Made by a program: the position numbers and the translations under genes
NCBI GenBank assembly: GCA_030611945.1
Contig: JAUWOV010000055.1
Location: 1 to 12,138, forward strand
Length of the DNA stretch: 12,138 nt
Source of the DNA: a bacterium
GTDB taxonomy: Bacteria; JAHJDO01
Reading direction: 5' to 3'
Notes under the pieces: model-generated
Databases searched by the model: none
The model's input: the letters and a program-made list of their open reading frames with translations, nothing else
What the model was told of the DNA's origin: nothing
Shown: positions 3,380 to 12,138 of the stretch, piece by piece
Numbering within the stretch: position 1 is the stretch's first letter
How the letters are laid out: every line of letters begins with the position of its first letter

Positions 3380-4297
3380 CTACATAAAGATTCTTATACA
3401 ACAACCAAAAACTATTGACAATGCGGAACATACATACATTATCCTTATAGAATCTTTTATATCCAAAAGCTCAAGAGGCTTTTCAGCATCGCCTATACAG
3501 GGTGATTTTCCGATTCTTATTCCAAGCGCTCCTGCAAATCCTGCTTCAGGAATACCGCTGTTTGGACTTGCATGTTTTTTTCTATCCCTTGAAATTATCC
3601 TGATAGAATCTCCGAATCCCTTTCCTGAAATAAACGAAGCTATTGGGATTAATGCCATTGATATTCGCGCAGGTATAAAATTGACTATGTCATCCAGTTT
3701 TGCAGATGCCCACCCAAGATTCACATATCTCTTGTTCTTGTACCCAACCATTGAATCAAGTGTATTTATCGCCTTATACGCCATACACAAAGGGGCTCCT
3801 CCAATAAATGCAAAGAAAAGTGGGGAAACAATCCCATCTACTGTGTTCTCTGCCACAGTTTCCACACTGGCTCTTATAATCTCTCTCTCATTTAAGTCTT
3901 CAGTATCCCTTCCAACAATTCTTGACAAATTCTTCCTTGCCAGAGATAAATCATTCCTATTTAGAGATGTATACACTCTGTTTGTTTCAATTGCGAGGTC
4001 TTTTACTGACAATGAGACAAAAATAAAATAAATACTTGCCATTACTCCAAATATCCAATGCAGGCGCGTTGCAAGCCATATCAATATAAAAACAAAGAAA
4101 TATGTTCCAAGCACAACCAGAAATGCCAGAATTATCCCGGCAACTTTTTCATTGCTTACAACTGCCCTTATCTTCTCTTCCAATACCTCTATTATTCTTC
4201 CTATCAGGACAATGGGATGAGGAAATCTCTCAGGATCCCCTATAATCAAATCCAGAATATATGCAAAAATTATTTGAACTGTAATGAAATATGTCAT
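3380..4297 (-). CDS. cbiB: Adenosylcobinamide-phosphate synthase CbiB
   Basis: Integral membrane enzyme that joins aminopropanol phosphate to adenosylcobyric acid, giving adenosylcobinamide phosphate. The 305-residue length is normal. Family blocks are LDLIIGDPERFPHPIVLIGRII at the N terminus, RIVGRDTEDLNEREIIRASVET, ENTVDGIVSPLFF, APLCMAYKAINTLDSMVGYKN and GWASAKLDD. Hydrophobic membrane segments lie near residues 5-20, 53-90, 150-170, 205-225 and at the C terminus. The start codon overlaps the cobD stop as ATGA, so the two genes are translationally coupled. CbiB uses the aminopropanol phosphate made by CobD, which matches the gene order. The E. coli name for this protein is also CbiB; CobD is its name in the Pseudomonas nomenclature. 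Confidence 0.95.
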   Translation of the reverse strand: MTYFITVQIIFAYILDLIIGDPERFPHPIVLIGRIIEVLEEKIRAVVSNEKVAGIILAFLVVLGTYFFVFILIWLATRLHWIFGVMASIYFIFVSLSVKDLAIETNRVYTSLNRNDLSLARKNLSRIVGRDTEDLNEREIIRASVETVAENTVDGIVSPLFFAFIGGAPLCMAYKAINTLDSMVGYKNKRYVNLGWASAKLDDIVNFIPARISMALIPIASFISGKGFGDSIRIISRDRKKHASPNSGIPEAGFAGALGIRIGKSPCIGDAEKPLELLDIKDSIRIMYVCSALSIVFGCCIRIFM

Positions 4298-5397
4298 CCT
4301 AATATCTTCTTAAGAGCCTTAATCAAGAGTTCGTTTTCAGCCCTTTTCTTAACCGCTATTCTTATAAACGAGCTATTCAATCCCTTGAAATTGCCGCAGT
4401 TTCTTACAACAATTTTGTCCCTTATAAGAAGTCTCTCTAAGCCTGCGGGACGGGCAGGCCCGCCCCCTACAAAAGTAGGGGTCAGGCCTGCCTGACCCAT
4501 TAATTTAAATAGAATAAAATTTGTATATGAATCAAATACTTTTATAGATTTTATGCTCTTCAATTCTGAAGACAGAAAATTTCGTTCCTTAATCAAAATT
4601 CTTTTGCTTTTCTCAATATATGCTGAATCGGCTAATAAATAAGAACCTGCAATCTGAGCAAATGTATTTACAGACCATGTCGGCTGGAAATTTTTTATCT
4701 TTGCGCTTAAACGAGCAGATACCACTCCGAAGCCAAGTCTTAATCCCGGAATTCCAAGAAACTTTGTCAATGACCTTATAACAAAAAGATTTTGCTGCCT
4801 TTGAGCTCTCGCAGCTAAACTCTCATCCTCAATCAAATCTATAAATGCTTCATCAATTACTACAAAGACATTATGCCGCTTGGCAAGATGCAGAATATTG
4901 TAAAGTGTATTGCGGGATATCTTCTGACCTGTCGGATTGTTCGGATTACAGATAAATAGAACTTCCACACTCTTAATAATGCTTCTTATATCCTGTAAAT
5001 TCAGCCCAAATCCTTCCTTCTCTTCCAGCTTTACAAATTTAATATTGCAATCAATATTTGACAATGCTTTCTCATATTCTGAAAAGGTAGGAATAATAAC
5101 AGCCGCCTTTTTGGGACGCAGCAAGTAGCATATAAGATATATTAGTTCTGTTGCCCCATTAGCTGGTACCAAACATGTTTTCTTGATGTTATATCTGTCT
5201 GAGATTGCATCTATCAACTCTCTGCAATCAGGGTCAGGATACATGCGAATTTTATTAAAATCTTCTTTGAGAACCTGTTTCAGCCTGTATGGGTGAGAAA
5301 CGGGATTTATATTTGCACTAAAGTCAACTATCTCACCAAGCGCTATATTGTGCTTTTTACTAATTTGGTATAAGTTGCCGCCGTGCTGAGGTTTCAA
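4294..5397 (-). CDS. cobD: Threonine-phosphate decarboxylase CobD (aminotransferase fold)
   Basis: PLP enzyme that decarboxylates L-threonine phosphate to aminopropanol phosphate, the linker of the cobamide nucleotide loop. Family features are HGGNLYQ near the N terminus, FSANINPV (26-33), the NPNNPTG motif (151-157), IDEAF (181-185) and SLTKFLGIPGLRLGF with PLP lysine K212. The start is TTG: an in-frame TAG stop directly precedes it, and a strong GGAGGAG (5410-5404) lies 6 bases upstream. The first 38 bases overlap the end of pduX, and the stop overlaps the cbiB start. Oddity: residues 301-319, between FKLM and LERLLIRDK, are a glycine/proline-rich insert encoded by a GC-rich palindromic element. 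All catalytic motifs lie before the insert and it stays in frame, so the enzyme may still work. Confidence 0.93.
   Translation of the reverse strand: MKPQHGGNLYQISKKHNIALGEIVDFSANINPVSHPYRLKQVLKEDFNKIRMYPDPDCRELIDAISDRYNIKKTCLVPANGATELIYLICYLLRPKKAAVIIPTFSEYEKALSNIDCNIKFVKLEEKEGFGLNLQDIRSIIKSVEVLFICNPNNPTGQKISRNTLYNILHLAKRHNVFVVIDEAFIDLIEDESLAARAQRQQNLFVIRSLTKFLGIPGLRLGFGVVSARLSAKIKNFQPTWSVNTFAQIAGSYLLADSAYIEKSKRILIKERNFLSSELKSIKSIKVFDSYTNFILFKLMGQAGLTPTFVGGGPARPAGLERLLIRDKIVVRNCGNFKGLNSSFIRIAVKKRAENELLIKALKKILG
4441..4498. repeat. GC-rich palindromic element inserted in frame in cobD
   Basis: This 58-base block is strikingly GC-rich against an AT-rich gene. It folds into several hairpins: CCCCTAC-AAAA-GTAGGGG (4464-4481), GGGTCAGGC-CT-GCCTGACCC (4479-4498) and GCCTGC...GCAGGC (4441-4459). 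It encodes residues 301-319 of CobD (GQAGLTPTFV then GGGPARPAG), which the family lacks as far as I recall. The architecture resembles mobile palindromic repeats such as the Rickettsia palindromic elements. Copy number in the rest of the genome is not visible here. Confidence 0.75.
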
Positions 5398-6265
5398 CTA
5401 GTTCTCCTCCCCCGTTTACAAGTTTAGTAATATAAAAGGTGAATTTTGCCTTAAATCTTTTTTCTATACTGCAAACAACCGTCTGCATATCAACCTGACC
5501 CGGGGAAAACAAAATACCAACAACCGTTCCACTATGAGCAGTATTAATTCCGCAAGCTCCTAATTCATTTGCAATTTTCATGATATCCATAAGCTCTCTT
5601 TTATGCAAAATTTTCTGATTGAATTCAGCGCTCATTGTTGCGCCTTTTCCAAGCATATATATGTCTTTTTTTCTAATTCCGTCTTTAACAAGCTCATAAG
5701 CTTCTCTCAACTCTGAAGCATTATTGAATTTCTCCAATATTTCATTACGTCTGGAATTAAACTCAAGAGTATTGATTCTTCCACCTAAATCAACAATCAA
5801 TATGTCCATTTCAGGTGGAGAGCCAATATATTCCTTTATTACTCCGCTTATATGGTCAAAAGTCAGCATGTCTTTAAACATCAAACCGTCTGTTGGTTCA
5901 ATAGAGATCGCTATTCCGGCAATTTCCAAAGGAGTTATATCTCTACCCGAAGCCTCTGCTGTAGCGATGCAGGTTCCAATTATGTCTGAGGTGCTGCTGC
6001 TCATACCTTTTTCCTGTGGAATTTCAGAATTTATACATATTTCCCCGCCGCATTTAAACATACCAAAATAATCCAGAACCTTCCTCATAGCTTCGCAGGA
6101 CTTATACTTATCGTCCGGTGCCTTTATTCTGGAATTTGATTCATCTATATCAACCTCAATATATGAATAAACATTTACAGGGCATGTTATAAGAAGATGC
6201 GTCCCGTCAAGCACACCCTGCCACAACTCTCCGCATGCGCCGGGAACTTTTACTGTTGTCTTCAT
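5360..6265 (-). CDS. pduX: L-threonine kinase PduX (GHMP kinase family)
   Basis: Cytoplasmic kinase that makes L-threonine O-3-phosphate, the substrate of CobD, for the aminopropanol linker of cobamides. The 301-residue length fits the family. The N terminus has PGACGEL (8-14), matching the PGSCGE signature of PduX proteins. The ATP-binding GHMP motif is PQEKGMSSSTSD (83-94), and a C-terminal GHMP-type block includes GINTAHSGTVVGILF. The ATG overlaps the nadB stop as ATGA, and the 3' end overlaps cobD by 38 bases, so the kinase and decarboxylase acting in sequence are encoded next to each other and probably translated together. No pdu microcompartment genes are present, so the role is cobamide synthesis and not propanediol use. 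Confidence 0.92.
   Translation of the reverse strand: MKTTVKVPGACGELWQGVLDGTHLLITCPVNVYSYIEVDIDESNSRIKAPDDKYKSCEAMRKVLDYFGMFKCGGEICINSEIPQEKGMSSSTSDIIGTCIATAEASGRDITPLEIAGIAISIEPTDGLMFKDMLTFDHISGVIKEYIGSPPEMDILIVDLGGRINTLEFNSRRNEILEKFNNASELREAYELVKDGIRKKDIYMLGKGATMSAEFNQKILHKRELMDIMKIANELGACGINTAHSGTVVGILFSPGQVDMQTVVCSIEKRFKAKFTFYITKLVNGGGELVETSARRQLIPN
5404..5410 (-). promoter_or_regulatory. Ribosome binding site that sets the TTG start of cobD
   Basis: GGAGGAG on the minus strand lies 6 bases before the TTG at 5397. The preceding codon is an in-frame stop, so the TTG is the only reasonable start for the conserved KPQHGGN N terminus. It lies inside the 3' end of pduX, which couples the two genes. 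Confidence 0.8.
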
Positions 6266-7881
6266 ATATCACTTAGTTCTATGTGTCTTTTCTGCCATTC
6301 TTTACCATTCTGTTCAGGATAATCTGTGCGATAGTGGACTCCTATGCTTTCTTTTCTGATAAGAGCTGCTTTCTGGACAAGTCCTGCTACAAGAAGCATA
6401 TTCTGAAATTCCCAATCCCTGATATCTGAAAATTCTTTCCCCATTACGTATGAAGACCAAAAATTAATTTCTTTCTGAGCTGCCAAAAGACTTCTCTCAT
6501 CTCTCTCAATACCAACATACCTTGTCATCAAGCTTTTCAAAGAAGCTTTAAGATCTCCTATGTCCAGTTTTCTTGCGCCGGCTGAGTCTAATACATTGCT
6601 TATATCCGAAGTTCTGTCAAATCGCTTTCCACAATCTATATCCTTACCTGCAGATTGCCCTGCTCTATAACCAAAAACAAGTCCTTCAAGGAGAGAATTG
6701 CTCGCCAGTCTGTTAGCGCCGTGAACCCCTGAAGAAGCTGTCTCTCCACATGCATATAGATTTTGAATATTAGTTTTCCCATTTTTATCTATTTTAATTC
6801 CTCCTATCATATAATGAGCAGTAGGCCGAACAGGTATAAAATCCTTCTTAATATCTATGCCAAAAGAAGAACAAACCTCCATTATGTTTGGGAAACGATT
6901 TTCTATTAACTTATAACTTAGGTGCGTAAGGTCTAAATAGACACGTGTATCAGCAGTTTCTCTCATCTCTTTCAGAATTGATCTTGACATCACGTCACGA
7001 GGAGCAAGCTCTCCATCCTTATGATATTCAAACATAAATCTCTCACCATGCTTGTTTCTCAAGACTCCGCCTTCCCCTCTAACTGCCTCAGAGATTAATG
7101 TGCGTGACAGGCCGGCTACGTATAAGGTGGTAGGATGAAACTGAACAAACTCCATATCTATAAGCTTAGCTCCCGCCCTATAGGCAAGCGCCATGCCGCA
7201 TCCTGTAGCAACAGTGGAGTTTGTTGTCTCCCGATAAACCTGTCCAATTCCGCCTGTAGCTAATATTACCTTACGCGCATAGACTATCTTCTTGGGCGAT
7301 TCGCGAATCGCCCCTACATTTCCATTTTTTATATTAACAACAGTGCCAAAACAAGCTCCATCTTTATGAAGTAAATCTATGACAAAAGCATACTCTAAAA
7401 TCTTAATATTAGCGCTCTGCCTGACTTTTGCTATTAGCGCTCTTTCTAATTCTGCACCCGTAGCATCGCCTTTTGCATGAATCACTCTTCGTATGCTATG
7501 GCCTGCTTCTTGAGTAAAAGAGAGACGGGCTCCCTGCTTGTCAAATTCTGTTCCCCATTGGATCAATTCCTTGATACGAACAGGTCCTTCTTCTACTACT
7601 ATCCTGACTGTCTTCTCGTTGCATAACCCGCACCCAACTCTTAATGTATCCTCTATATGCTTTTCAGATGAATCGTTCTCTGATAACGCTACAGCTATTC
7701 CGCCCTGGGCTTTTTGAGTGTTGTTTTCGCTGAGTTTATCCTTTGTTATTATAGTCACCTTTCCATATTTTGCCGCCTGAATAGCAGCAGAGAGCCCAGC
7801 TACACCACTTCCAATAATTAAAATATCAGTTTTGACAGATGGCAGGTCTTTTGAATTAAAAGATGTGAGGAATTTATTCAT
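6262..7881 (-). CDS. nadB: L-aspartate oxidase NadB
   Basis: FAD enzyme that oxidises L-aspartate to iminoaspartate, the first step of de novo NAD synthesis through quinolinate and nicotinate mononucleotide. Visible are the FAD motif IIGSGVAG (22-29), NTQKAQGGIA, the HAKGDATG block, QFHPTTL, SEAVRGEGGVLRN, LAPRDVMSR, RPTAHYMIGGI and the FAD-binding ASSGVHGANRLASNSLLEG. The product is about 539 residues, normal for the family. I chose ATG 7881 because the protein then begins MNKFLTSFNS shortly before the FAD motif. ATG 7890 and TTG 7917 are alternatives, but both overlap the promoter boxes described for this gene. The stop overlaps the pduX start (ATGA). Its product leads to nicotinate mononucleotide, the co-substrate of CobT at the operon end. 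Residues 189-196 (VGAIRESP) come from an in-frame palindromic repeat. Confidence 0.95.
   Translation of the reverse strand: MNKFLTSFNSKDLPSVKTDILIIGSGVAGLSAAIQAAKYGKVTIITKDKLSENNTQKAQGGIAVALSENDSSEKHIEDTLRVGCGLCNEKTVRIVVEEGPVRIKELIQWGTEFDKQGARLSFTQEAGHSIRRVIHAKGDATGAELERALIAKVRQSANIKILEYAFVIDLLHKDGACFGTVVNIKNGNVGAIRESPKKIVYARKVILATGGIGQVYRETTNSTVATGCGMALAYRAGAKLIDMEFVQFHPTTLYVAGLSRTLISEAVRGEGGVLRNKHGERFMFEYHKDGELAPRDVMSRSILKEMRETADTRVYLDLTHLSYKLIENRFPNIMEVCSSFGIDIKKDFIPVRPTAHYMIGGIKIDKNGKTNIQNLYACGETASSGVHGANRLASNSLLEGLVFGYRAGQSAGKDIDCGKRFDRTSDISNVLDSAGARKLDIGDLKASLKSLMTRYVGIERDERSLLAAQKEINFWSSYVMGKEFSDIRDWEFQNMLLVAGLVQKAALIRKESIGVHYRTDYPEQNGKEWQKRHIELSDI
7294..7317. repeat. Short perfect palindrome inserted in frame in nadB
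   Basis: Bases 7294-7313 form a perfect palindrome with arms GGGCGATTCG and CGAATCGCCC, followed by CTAC. The 24 bases encode exactly eight codons, VGAIRESP, residues 189-196 of NadB. They fall in a variable stretch just before the conserved YARKVILATGG strand, where extra residues could be tolerated. The base composition is unlike the surrounding gene. I recall similar GTAGGGGCGATTCG palindromes as dispersed repeats in other bacterial genomes, but could not check this. Confidence 0.65.
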
Positions 7882-7888
7882 AAGCCGC

Positions 7889-7917
7889 ATTCTACATCGC
7901 TTATAAAACAGTGTCAA
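7889..7917 (-). promoter_or_regulatory. Sigma70-like promoter of the nadB-cob operon
   Basis: On the minus strand a perfect TTGACA (-35, 7917-7912) is followed after 17 bases by TAGAAT (-10, 7894-7889). A start of transcription about 7 bases downstream falls at or next to the ATG at 7881, so the nadB mRNA could be leaderless or nearly so. The -35 box lies in the tail of the DUF2779-like remnant. No cobalamin riboswitch box was seen between this promoter and nadB. Confidence 0.5.
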
Positions 7918-7993
7918 ACAGGAAGATACTTCGAATTAAGAGCTTTGAACACTGAAGCCCTGCAAGGTATTTTGATTTTGTTAAAAGTGCCAT
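7901..7993 (-). pseudogene. 5' remnant of a DUF2779-like gene, copy 1
   Basis: ATG at 7993 follows an AGGA-type ribosome binding site and encodes MALLTKSKYLAGLQCSKLL, then an unrelated tail ending at a stop (30 residues in all). The first part matches from memory the N terminus of DUF2779 proteins, which have a PD-(D/E)XK nuclease-like domain and typically begin with LTKSKYLxGLQCPK. Only the first 19 codons are shared with copy 2, and both copies are cut at the same codon. The rest of the gene is absent. It could instead be a small leader peptide. It follows the MazF-like toxin gene and overlaps the nadB promoter. Confidence 0.45.
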
Positions 7994-8017
7994 GCTGTTG
8001 TCCTAATTGTAGTGTAT
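7938..8017. repeat. 80-bp direct repeat, copy 1 (left flank of the toxin-antitoxin pair)
   Basis: Matches 9186-9265 in the same orientation with four mismatches in 80 bases. It covers about 25 bases of leader plus the first 19 codons of the DUF2779-like remnant. Both mismatches in the coding part are in third codon positions and silent (GCA/GCG and ACA/ACC). The repeat unit spacing is 1248 bases, enclosing both toxin-antitoxin genes. Confidence 0.9.
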
Positions 8018-9181: not shown

Positions 9182-9241
9182 TTACAAGAGCTTTGAACAC
9201 TGAAGCCCTGCAAGGTATTTTGATTTGGTTAAAAGCGCCAT
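9182..9241 (-). pseudogene. 5' remnant of a DUF2779-like gene, copy 2
   Basis: ATG at 9241 starts four bases after the Vsr stop codon and encodes the 19-residue peptide MALLTKSKYLAGLQCSKLL, followed directly by TAA. It is identical in protein to the first 19 residues of copy 1 and broken at the same codon. After the break comes unrelated AT-rich sequence containing GGAGTCAGGTC. Its position suggests that a DUF2779-like gene once followed vsr in a defence cluster and was lost apart from its beginning. Confidence 0.45.
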
Positions 9242-9265
9242 GCTGTTATCCTAATCGTAGTGTAT
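9186..9265. repeat. 80-bp direct repeat, copy 2 (right flank of the toxin-antitoxin pair)
   Basis: Same orientation as 7938-8017, with 76 of 80 bases identical. This copy overlaps the last codons and stop of vsr. It and copy 1 end at the same base on the remnant side (CTCTT on the minus strand) and diverge at once beyond it. Confidence 0.9.
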
Positions 9266-9665
9266 TTATTAAGTTATTAAGTGTTTTGTTTCTAACTTTT
9301 AGATTTCTCAACTCACATTGCCAAATTGTAATTACTTTCCAACCACGTTTTTCAAGTTCAGATATGTTTTTTTTATATCGTTTGATATTGCCGTCTATTT
9401 TTTTCGTCCAAAAAGTTTTTCTCGTTTCGGGAAGTTTACCTGCCGGACAATCGTGTCCATGCCAAAAACACCCATGAATAAAAATTAGCATTTTGTATTT
9501 TGGCAAAACAATATCTGGTTTACCGGGATATCGTTTGTCGTTTTTACGGAATCTGAAACCTTTTGAGAATAAATACTTTCTTACTATAATTTCGGGTTTT
9601 GTTTCTTTTCCTGAAATTTTAGACATTATTTGACTGCGCTTTTGTTTGGTATAGATATCAGACAT
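9246..9665 (-). CDS. vsr: Very short patch repair endonuclease Vsr
   Basis: Nicks DNA 5' of the T in T:G mismatches that arise when 5-methylcytosine deaminates, and usually accompanies a C5-cytosine methyltransferase. The 139-residue product has all key residues, with the E. coli numbering as I recall it: catalytic D51 in KPDIVLP, H64, H69 and H71 in HGCFWHGH, and zinc cysteines C66, C73 and C117 (WQCEL). The N terminus has the usual RSQIMSKISGKETKPE block. It lacks a C-terminal extension of about 17 residues found in the 156-residue E. coli protein. It begins five bases after the small ORF at 9671-9799, without a clear ribosome binding site, so it is probably coupled to upstream translation. 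Its partner methyltransferase at the right end is broken. Confidence 0.93.
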   Translation of the reverse strand: MSDIYTKQKRSQIMSKISGKETKPEIIVRKYLFSKGFRFRKNDKRYPGKPDIVLPKYKMLIFIHGCFWHGHDCPAGKLPETRKTFWTKKIDGNIKRYKKNISELEKRGWKVITIWQCELRNLKVRNKTLNNLINTLRLG

Positions 9666-9670
9666 ATGAA

Positions 9671-9799
9671 TTAATTAATTATAGATATACCAAGTCGAGC
9701 AATATAAGCTGATAATTTCTGTAATATATCAGCAAAAATACAGTCCTTTGCTTTGAAAAGTAATTTATATTTATCAGTATTTTTGAATTTATTATTCAT
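9671..9799 (-). CDS. Small hypothetical protein between the ATPase and vsr
   Basis: A 42-residue ORF (starts MNNKFKNTDK, ends LGISIIN). Its ATG lies one base after the ATPase stop codon and its stop lies five bases before the vsr ATG, so it fills the gap in the way coupled operon genes do. No ribosome binding site is visible, and the peptide matches no family that I know. It is basic near the N terminus, with an amphipathic-looking stretch ADILQKLSAYIARLG. It could be a real small gene, the remnant of a larger one, or chance in AT-rich DNA. Confidence 0.35.
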   Translation of the reverse strand: MNNKFKNTDKYKLLFKAKDCIFADILQKLSAYIARLGISIIN

Positions 9800-9800
9800 A

Positions 9801-11423
9801 TTAATTTGGCTCAGCATCATCAAGTCTACGAAAAAGATGGGAGAGCAGGCTGAGCGCATCAAGACAGTCTTTTGCAGTATATATTTCTGATTTTTTTAAA
9901 TCTTCATTTTCTTGATGCCCGATAGGGTTACGAAAAGCTGCTATCATAGCCTGTGCCAACAGATGATTTCCTCTTTCAATAGTATCTTTTGTTGGATTGG
10001 TTATTTTAGCGCCGGTAGTTGGGTTGCTATATGATTCATACCTCTTAGTTATAGATAGTATTCCATGTTCTTTACCAAAAGCCCAATTAATAACTTCATT
10101 ATCCTCACCAACTGTTTCTTTCGCGGTCTTATGTCTAAGTTTTGTAATATATCTTTTGGCTCCATTAAGAACTGCATCATAGTATTTTTCTTGCTCGTAG
10201 TATTCTAAGGTAAGCGCTTTCAATTCTGGTAGAAGATTCTTGTTATGGAATTCGGGGTATTTTTCACTTATTTCATCTATAACTTCTATTGCGGTCTCTG
10301 TATCCATGTCTGCTTCCGCAAAAGTTTCTACGGAGCTATCAAAATCTTCTTTCTCTTCCCCTGTTTTTATACTGTCTTCTTTTTCCTTTATTTTAGCATT
10401 AGATTTTATGGCTTTTACTTTTGCCTCTTTCCATTTTTTTCGCCAATCTTGTTCCATTTTCTTAATTGTATCTGCGAGCCATTTTTCGAATTCAGCGAGT
10501 TCTAGATTTCCCCAATTTAAGGTTTTTCTGTCCGTAGAGATGACGTCATCGGGAAGATCGTCAATAAAATCAACCTCAAGGTATCCTGTTAAGTATTCAT
10601 AGAAAAAGCTGGAACTATCAATGGGGAAAAGTTCGGGCAGATTTACAAGTTTTTTTCTTGATAGTAGTGCGACCCCTCTTAGTTTTTTTGTAATAGGTTT
10701 TTTTGTTGTAAAGATTCTACCTCTTATTTCTTGCGTATAAGGATATGTTCTATTCGGAAATCTCCAAAGAAATTGTATATCTAATTGCTGATAACGAGTC
10801 TCGTTTGTTATCTCTTCGTAATCACCATCATTGTATTTTGCAAAAACCTTGAAATTTGAATCAAAAATAAAATAATTGGCTATTTTATTTTTTAAACCTT
10901 GAAAATCAAAATTTGAATCACGCTTTATTTGATTAAGTTTTACTATTGTCCCATTTTCTTCTTTGGTATCTTCAGATTTATATTCAGGAAAATAATCTTT
11001 TGATTTTCTTATTTTTTTACGATCCATCTCAAAAACTGTTTTTCTTTTATTTTGAATAGTTATAATCTCAGCATAATCAGTAATGCCGAAAAATGACAAT
11101 TTACCAATTCCTTTTTTACCCATTACAGGTCTATTAAAAATGGGATCATGCGTTTCTTTTTCTTCTCTCCTTTTTCGACCCACGAGTAAATAGTTATCAT
11201 TAATTTGATTGTAGCTCATCCCATTCCCATTATCTTTAACCAATATTGTTTTGTTTTGAGAATCTGAATCACTAAATTCAATATGAATTTCCTTTGCTCC
11301 CGCATCATAACCATTTGCAATTAATTCAGAAATAATGGGGGGTAAGGTTGAATATAATTTTGCTCCTAAGTCATCAATGGTATTAGGGTCAAATTTCAGT
11401 TGTAATTTTTCTTCTTTATCCAT
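9801..11423 (-). CDS. GHKL (Hsp90/MORC-like) ATPase with C-terminal Ymh-type domain, restriction-modification associated
   Basis: A 540-residue protein. The N-terminal GHKL ATP-binding domain shows all three motifs: N box ISELIANGYDA with E33, N37 and D40; G1 DNGNGM (64-69); G2 GKKGIGKLS (102-110). A second domain runs to about residue 340, followed by a charged, probably coiled linker (about 335-400). The C terminus (about 445-540), with NPTKDTIERGNHLLAQAMIAAFRNPIGH and LSLLSHLFRRLDDA, resembles the Ymh domain (TIGR02391). GHKL ATPases of this kind occur beside C5-methyltransferases, Vsr-like nucleases and helicases in predicted restriction-modification systems, and are relatives of eukaryotic MORC. 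The ATG overlaps the methyltransferase stop by 8 bases, and vsr follows. It probably acts as an ATP-driven clamp on DNA in defence; the exact role is not known. Confidence 0.88.
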   Translation of the reverse strand: MDKEEKLQLKFDPNTIDDLGAKLYSTLPPIISELIANGYDAGAKEIHIEFSDSDSQNKTILVKDNGNGMSYNQINDNYLLVGRKRREEKETHDPIFNRPVMGKKGIGKLSFFGITDYAEIITIQNKRKTVFEMDRKKIRKSKDYFPEYKSEDTKEENGTIVKLNQIKRDSNFDFQGLKNKIANYFIFDSNFKVFAKYNDGDYEEITNETRYQQLDIQFLWRFPNRTYPYTQEIRGRIFTTKKPITKKLRGVALLSRKKLVNLPELFPIDSSSFFYEYLTGYLEVDFIDDLPDDVISTDRKTLNWGNLELAEFEKWLADTIKKMEQDWRKKWKEAKVKAIKSNAKIKEKEDSIKTGEEKEDFDSSVETFAEADMDTETAIEVIDEISEKYPEFHNKNLLPELKALTLEYYEQEKYYDAVLNGAKRYITKLRHKTAKETVGEDNEVINWAFGKEHGILSITKRYESYSNPTTGAKITNPTKDTIERGNHLLAQAMIAAFRNPIGHQENEDLKKSEIYTAKDCLDALSLLSHLFRRLDDAEPN

Positions 11424-11998
11424 GATTTTTTATTATAGTTTCCGCAATCTGCTTGGCATAGAGAGGTGGAACTGCATTTCCTATCATTCTTGCGATTGCA
11501 CCGATACTTTTTGTTTTAAAAACATAATCTTTCGGAAAGGTTTGTAGTGTAGCCCCTTCTCGCAAAGACAATGCCCTGTCTTCTTCCGGATGTCCGAAAC
11601 GTCCATTTGAAATACTATGAAATTTGGTAGTAATTGTAGGTGCTGGCTTTTCCCAAAACATTCTACCGTATGTATCCTGAAAAGAATTTTTATCTCTTTT
11701 CTTGTAAGTATCCAATTGCAGGTCAGTATTTGACCAATCTAATCTGTTTCCACCGTTCTTTTTAGTTTTTCTCATTCGTTCCAAATTTTTCTCACTTAAT
11801 CCGGACGCAGTATGCATAAACTCTGAATTATCTCTGTGTCCTGCTGGTATTTTCGGGAAACCGTTTTTTACACCGATAAAATCTTTGACTACTGGAAAAT
11901 TGTCCTTTTTCGGCTTGGGGAACATTCTTTTGTTAGCTACTCTTGTTGCTATTAAAGAAAATCTTTTTCTGTTTTGTGGAATGCCGTAATTATTTAGA
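11416..11998 (-). pseudogene. C5-cytosine DNA methyltransferase, N-terminal half lost at the terminal repeat
   Basis: The surviving part holds the C-terminal half of a 5-methylcytosine methyltransferase: motif VIII (YGIPQNRKR) at the very edge, a target-recognition region, a PTITTKFHS segment, motif IX (LREGATLQTFP) and motif X (IGNAVPP), ending at KNHG. Motif I (FxGxGG), motif IV with the catalytic PCQ and motif VI (ENV) are missing. The reading frame runs into the inverted repeat at 11999 immediately before GLNNYGIPQ. Beyond that it only crosses the antisense strand of the putative transposase leader, so no working enzyme can be made from this copy. The missing half may lie on the far side of the inserted element. 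The stop overlaps the ATPase start by 8 bases. Confidence 0.85.
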
Positions 11999-12050
11999 CC
12001 CAAAAACCTAGATAGAAGCCTAAAAAAAGGTAGAAAGAAGCAGGCTCTGC

Positions 12051-12059
12051 TGGTATAAT
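12051..12059 (+). promoter_or_regulatory. Extended -10 promoter of the outward gene (right copy)
   Basis: TGGTATAAT is a perfect -10 box with an extended TGn. The -35 region 17 bases upstream (TAGAAA) is poor, which an extended -10 can offset. The same promoter is on the minus strand at 88-80. The predicted transcript starts near 12066, just before the 15-bp dyad. Confidence 0.5.
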
Positions 12060-12074
12060 AGCAAAAACAGAGCA

Positions 12075-12089
12075 TCACCCAATGGGTGA
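12075..12089. repeat. 15-bp dyad in the leader of the terminal-repeat gene (right copy)
   Basis: TCACCCA-A-TGGGTGA lies between the -10 box and GGAG (12095-12098) of the outward gene. It is either an operator or a small leader hairpin. Confidence 0.6.
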
Positions 12090-12104
12090 AAAACGGAGAT
12101 AAAG

Positions 12105-12138
12105 ATGCTATTAACAAAAAAGATGTCACAAGTCAGAT
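12105..12138 (+). CDS. Start of an outward-facing gene, probable transposase (partial)
   Basis: ATG at 12105 with GGAG 6 bases upstream encodes MLLTKKMSQVR before the contig ends. It is identical to the gene start at the left end. The function is inferred only from its place in the repeated block. Confidence 0.4.
   Translation, partial: MLLTKKMSQVR

Follow-up and report, generated by a model that had tools for sequence, protein, structure and literature searches.

How does a GC-rich, multi-hairpin block of DNA come to lie in frame inside a gene for a cofactor-biosynthesis enzyme? The question is raised by a bacterial contig of 12,138 nt (JAUWOV010000055.1 of assembly GCA_030611945.1, GTDB lineage JAHJDO01), the whole of which is referred to here as the window. 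An earlier note, made from the sequence alone, had drawn such a block at 4441–4498 within cobD and likened it to the Rickettsia palindromic elements (RPEs). We put a probability of about 0.87 on the block being an inverted dimer of GTAG-tagged repetitive extragenic palindromes (REPs), in the manner of a bacterial interspersed mosaic element (BIME) or REP doublet forming a hairpin (REPIN). It would be a non-autonomous element that entered cobD at a variable loop, once this species had diverged from its congeners, and was likely moved by a REP-associated tyrosine transposase (RAYT). The comparison group consists of five genomes from one genus, which here represents a whole phylum-level group, and all the genome data are metagenome-assembled genomes. 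The host gene and the parts of the block are as follows.

4294..5397, minus strand: cobD, threonine-phosphate decarboxylase, host of the insertion; 367 aa, above the TIGR01140 cut-off
4447..4498, minus strand: REP pair, tail-to-tail, GTAG ends inside, 4-nt spacer; from sequence, fold, dimer scan and the empty site in congeners
4447..4470, minus strand: REP unit 1, GTAGGGGGCGGGCCTGCCCGTCCC, read in CobD as VGGGPARP
4471..4474, no strand: spacer AAAA/TTTT separating the two GTAG tags
4475..4498, plus strand: REP unit 2, GTAGGGGTCAGGCCTGCCTGACCC, read from the opposite strand as GQAGLTPT

Each unit is a 20-nt palindrome led by GTAG. The unpaired GTAG directly precedes the hairpin, as in GTAG-tagged REPs with their short stems of 5–13 bp, and the GTAG ends of the two units face each other; unit 1 as dissected, 4447–4470, is GGGACGGGCAGGCCCGCCCCCTAC. 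The block has the two inverted units close together that define a REP dimer, with a spacer of 4 nt. The core comes to 52 nt (24 + 4 + 24 nt), compared to 58 nt as first drawn. The first outline did enclose a real element, but the element proper is 4447–4498, and the remaining six nucleotides, GCCTGC at 4441–4446, are probably flank. Translation of the minus strand in the cobD frame gives LMGQAGLTPTFVGGGPARPAGLE, free of stops, and one of the two remaining sense frames contains stops. The G+C content is 72% in the block versus 35% in the remainder of cobD. Folding of the block together with its flanks gives −42.5 kcal/mol (z = −5.1), a value equaled by none of 200 shuffles, and in a scan of the window with 58-nt folds the block scored −42.3 versus −20.3 for the best fold elsewhere. 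The description of a GC-rich palindrome, in frame, without a stop and unlike its gene in composition is therefore borne out.

The CobD encoded by the host gene scores 323.5 bits against TIGR01140 (NCBI; cut-off 290.6). The block is missing from the CobD orthologs of three congeners (353–355 aa; 82–86% identical), which have just a short variable loop at that position, and it is also missing from two distant orthologs (43% and 36% identical) and from Salmonella CobD (1LC5). The ortholog alignment that the earlier note had called for thus comes out in its favor, and by this sequence comparison the block is a lineage-specific insertion. The net gain relative to the congeners is 36–42 nt, or 12–14 residues, and not the roughly 19 residues first proposed, since 16–22 nt of the variable loop gave way to the block. 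As far as the alignment can indicate, the 52-nt dimer either replaced about 16 nt or more of the loop or arrived while the loop itself was diverging. An AlphaFold model of CobD, made with a four-sequence alignment (mean pLDDT 72.7; template modeling score 0.85 to Salmonella CobD), has residues 304–318 at a pLDDT below 50 between a strand at 294–299 and a helix at 320–326. In this model, the insert lies in a loop of the C-terminal small domain, rather than between the catalytic and C-terminal domains as had been supposed.

Recurrence in the genome holds for the units and not for the block as a whole. The exact 58-mer expected to recur is single copy in the 1.66-Mb genome, and BlastN with a 78-nt version of the block found one match only; searches with shorter units revealed the family. 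A genome-wide search for GTAGGGG with a spaced CCC after it returned 86 strand hits, in a census by pattern search and inspection of the matching stretches that misses REPs lacking GTAGGG. A hairpin filter left 70 candidate GTAG units, and on visual inspection about 64 were convincing; the unit length is 24–26 nt, and 49 of the 70 have a T directly 5′ of the GTAG. The stems co-vary: stem positions pair in 96.5% of cases versus 69% in shuffled controls, and doubly changed stem positions number 60 versus 16, both figures being partly circular since the set was preselected for pairing. Both cobD half-units belong to this family of about 64 copies. The closest kin of unit 2, GTAGGGGTCAGGCATGCCTGACCC, is intergenic in congener G001 and identical at 23 of 24 positions, and two further congeners (G003 and G004) have comparable REP families. 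The CCTACnnnnGTAGG center alone occurs at two other places in the genome, neither with REP stems.

A second member of the family sits in frame in the same window, in the gene for another cofactor-biosynthesis enzyme.

6262..7917, minus strand: nadB, L-aspartate oxidase, host of the second REP; above the TIGR00551 cut-off
7294..7317, minus strand: second in-frame REP, GTAGGGGCGATTCGCGAATCGCCC, read in NadB as VGAIRESP; exact 24-nt insertion

Here, the gain relative to three congeners is exactly 24 nt, a single REP unit, and the comparison with those congeners shows no visible target duplication. At least five more genes, each compared to orthologs, carry REPs in frame. A histidine kinase has units at two sites, and the sigma-54 response regulator adjoining it also contains one. 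A Dpy19-like membrane protein has three units at two sites, a phosphomannomutase-like protein has one at its N-terminus, and a PHP-type protein, named from its sequence and without a Pfam match, has a head-to-head dimer. In the linker of the histidine kinase, differing GTAG-like palindromes occupy the same point in four of five congeners, and the fifth has a non-REP sequence; the response regulator and one of the membrane protein sites show a similar mixture. Either old insertions have drifted at these sites or the units have been replaced. It is a tentative and rather doubtful idea that they are recurrent docking sites at which REPs are gained, lost or exchanged for another subtype with the frame kept. 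If such exchange, and not the drift of one old insertion, proves true, REPs would be an ongoing source of in-frame protein variation.

The PHP-type dimer is one copy of a head-to-head doublet of a GTCGGAT-type and a CTTGAT-type unit, which is found at three places in the genome, one of them with a longer spacer, and also in congener G002. Its sites, in coordinates of the individual loci, are these.

L039, 1501–1583: GTCGGAT/CTTGAT doublet
L072, 136–185: GTCGGAT/CTTGAT doublet
L077, 1656–1705: GTCGGAT/CTTGAT doublet, in frame close to the end of the PHP-type gene
L146, 1375–1424: GTCGGAT/CTTGAT doublet

The genome also has candidates for the enzyme. Three Y1_Tnp genes have RAYT features, and each carries GTAG REPs within its own reading frame. 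Against NF047646 (REP_Tyr_transpos), a RAYT of this genome scores below the curated cut-off and a congener RAYT just above it. The internal units of one, C105, are GTAGGGGCACAGCGTGCTGTGCCC and GTAGGGGCACGGCGTGCCGTGCCC, and copies identical to them lie scattered through the genome. On either side of the HUH motif, several RAYTs of the genus (L053, L054, L057 and L058) carry an in-frame REP, the two being head-to-head; another, C88, lacks the HUH segment and has a single REP at the junction. Among 29 loci sampled from distant RAYTs, about 25 carry a palindrome in frame immediately following HUH, which is not an unbiased rate, as the query has such a palindrome too. Many of the internal REPs of these distant RAYTs have a double foot (GTAG...CTAC). 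Subclass 2.4 was described as having REPs that lie in frame in the transposase gene itself, generally between the HUH and Y motifs, together with double-foot REPs (Quentin et al. 2018, PMC6006769). The RAYTs of this genome have in-frame REPs between those motifs and so appear to be of the subclass 2.4 type, an assignment that follows from the internal REPs rather than from the authors' profile. We had considered RAYT-internal REPs to be unreported, but dropped that claim as they are already described in the same paper. The genus departs from that description in two ways: several of its RAYTs contain a pair of in-frame REPs with one lying upstream of HUH, and one RAYT has lost the HUH segment between its REPs.

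TnpA-REP enzymes bind and cleave single-stranded GTAG hairpins in vitro (PMC8266576). The best inference is that a RAYT, a Y1/HUH single-strand transposase of the TnpA-REP kind, placed the cobD element. It would have recognized the GTAG-footed hairpin in single-stranded DNA, then cut and rejoined it, so that, following the separation of this species from its congeners, a REP dimer entered the variable cobD loop. The insertion presumably survived because the change of length kept the frame, the frame used avoids the TAG contained in the GTAG tag, and the encoded peptide, probably floppy, would lie in a loop away from the conserved CobD residues. Going by the sequence, CobD with its insert is probably still active, and we presume the element to be neutral for its host.

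A palindromic, in-frame, loop-located block is also what one would expect if a CGTC-tagged repeat of the RPE type had independently invaded this genome. The likeness drawn in the earlier note holds in that the element is of the selfish type, lies in frame and has a host unrelated to Rickettsia. The class does not hold: REPs are sorted into GTAG and CGTC superfamilies, the latter including RPE-4 and RPE-6 (Di Nocera, De Gregorio and Rocco 2013, PMC3733652), and the cobD block is tagged GTAG. The REP family of the genome and its RAYT association are likewise of the GTAG type, whereas no dedicated transposase is known for CGTC repeats (PMC3733652). The tag refutes a Rickettsia-type element, and an independent invasion of this sort is very improbable. 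Nearly as improbable is that the block is not mobile DNA at all, but a selected RNA or protein feature of cobD, such as a translational pause hairpin or a CobD-specific loop. The hairpin is highly stable and would be so in the mRNA too; yet a selected feature is hard to reconcile with its absence from every CobD ortholog examined and with the scatter of the same type of unit across unrelated genes and spacers of the genome.

A variant of the dimer insertion deserves more weight. One REP may have entered cobD, and a second may later have been inserted at, or copied beside, its GTAG end. The two units differ in sequence, making a heterodimer, their spacer is just 4 nt and this type of dimer does not recur elsewhere. 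On the other side, the GTCGGAT/CTTGAT doublet recurs whole in several places, one of them in frame in the PHP-type gene, and therefore dimers do move as units. We regard the two-step course as a serious possibility, though the less favored one. Several points count against insertion of a ready-made dimer by a resident RAYT. The exact dimer has no second copy in the genome and the doublet does not recur as a unit; moreover, dimers with GTAG inside are rare in the genome, the one other found having a 19-nt spacer, and both points leave room for two separate insertions. No RAYT cognate to the GTCAGGC subtype was identified. The replacement of 16–22 nt of the loop leaves a junction that is not clean, and therefore the exact event cannot be reconstructed. 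Finally, the genome is metagenome-assembled, and an assembly error in a repeat can be checked only with the reads.

In every respect tested, the cobD block matches the published description of intragenic GTAG-REPs (PMC3733652), so its kind is known, and the lineage and host genes are new. The shared features are the GTAG tag, a stem of 8–9 bp, oppositely oriented dimers, insertion in frame, copy numbers in the tens per genome and the proposed loop or linker positions. That study listed in-frame GTAG-REPs, more than half of them in dimers or groups that encode 20–30 residues, possibly tolerated in loops. Its emphasis was on genes of DNA replication and repair, whereas the hosts here include cobD and nadB. 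As in REPINs and BIMEs (Bertels and Rainey 2011, PMC3116915), two inverted REP units make a larger hairpin; unlike them, the cobD doublet has a 4-nt spacer with GTAG inside, is intragenic and has a copy number of one. The in-frame REPs inside the transposase genes resemble those of the subclass 2.4 REPtrons (PMC6006769). The resemblance to RPEs is in palindromic repeats lying in frame in protein genes, here those of CobD, NadB and others, and the differences from RPE-4 and RPE-6 are the GTAG tag and the presence of RAYT genes. A deep uncultured lineage and two enzymes of cofactor biosynthesis are thereby added to the known range of in-frame GTAG-REP insertion, with unusually clean contrasts between close relatives with and without the insert. 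There is also a caution for annotation, in that mobile DNA can turn up in translated form in proteins of metagenome-assembled genomes, as peptides such as VGAGLKPA, RGTARRAPT and GLTPTFVG.

Elsewhere in the window, the two ends of the 12,138-bp contig (1–140 and 11999–12138) form a perfect 140-nt inverted repeat that overlaps the start of the C5-methyltransferase open reading frame; it is probably an assembly end artefact. An 80-nt direct repeat, 95% identical between its copies at 7938–8017 and 9186–9265, flanks a gene with a Panacea (SocA-like) antitoxin domain and a small gene. A restriction-like cluster occupies 9246–12129, with a Vsr endonuclease, an HSP90-like ATPase and the C5 cytosine methyltransferase, which reaches the contig end. 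The HSP90-like ATPase contains a Hypoth_Ymh domain and matches type II restriction models.
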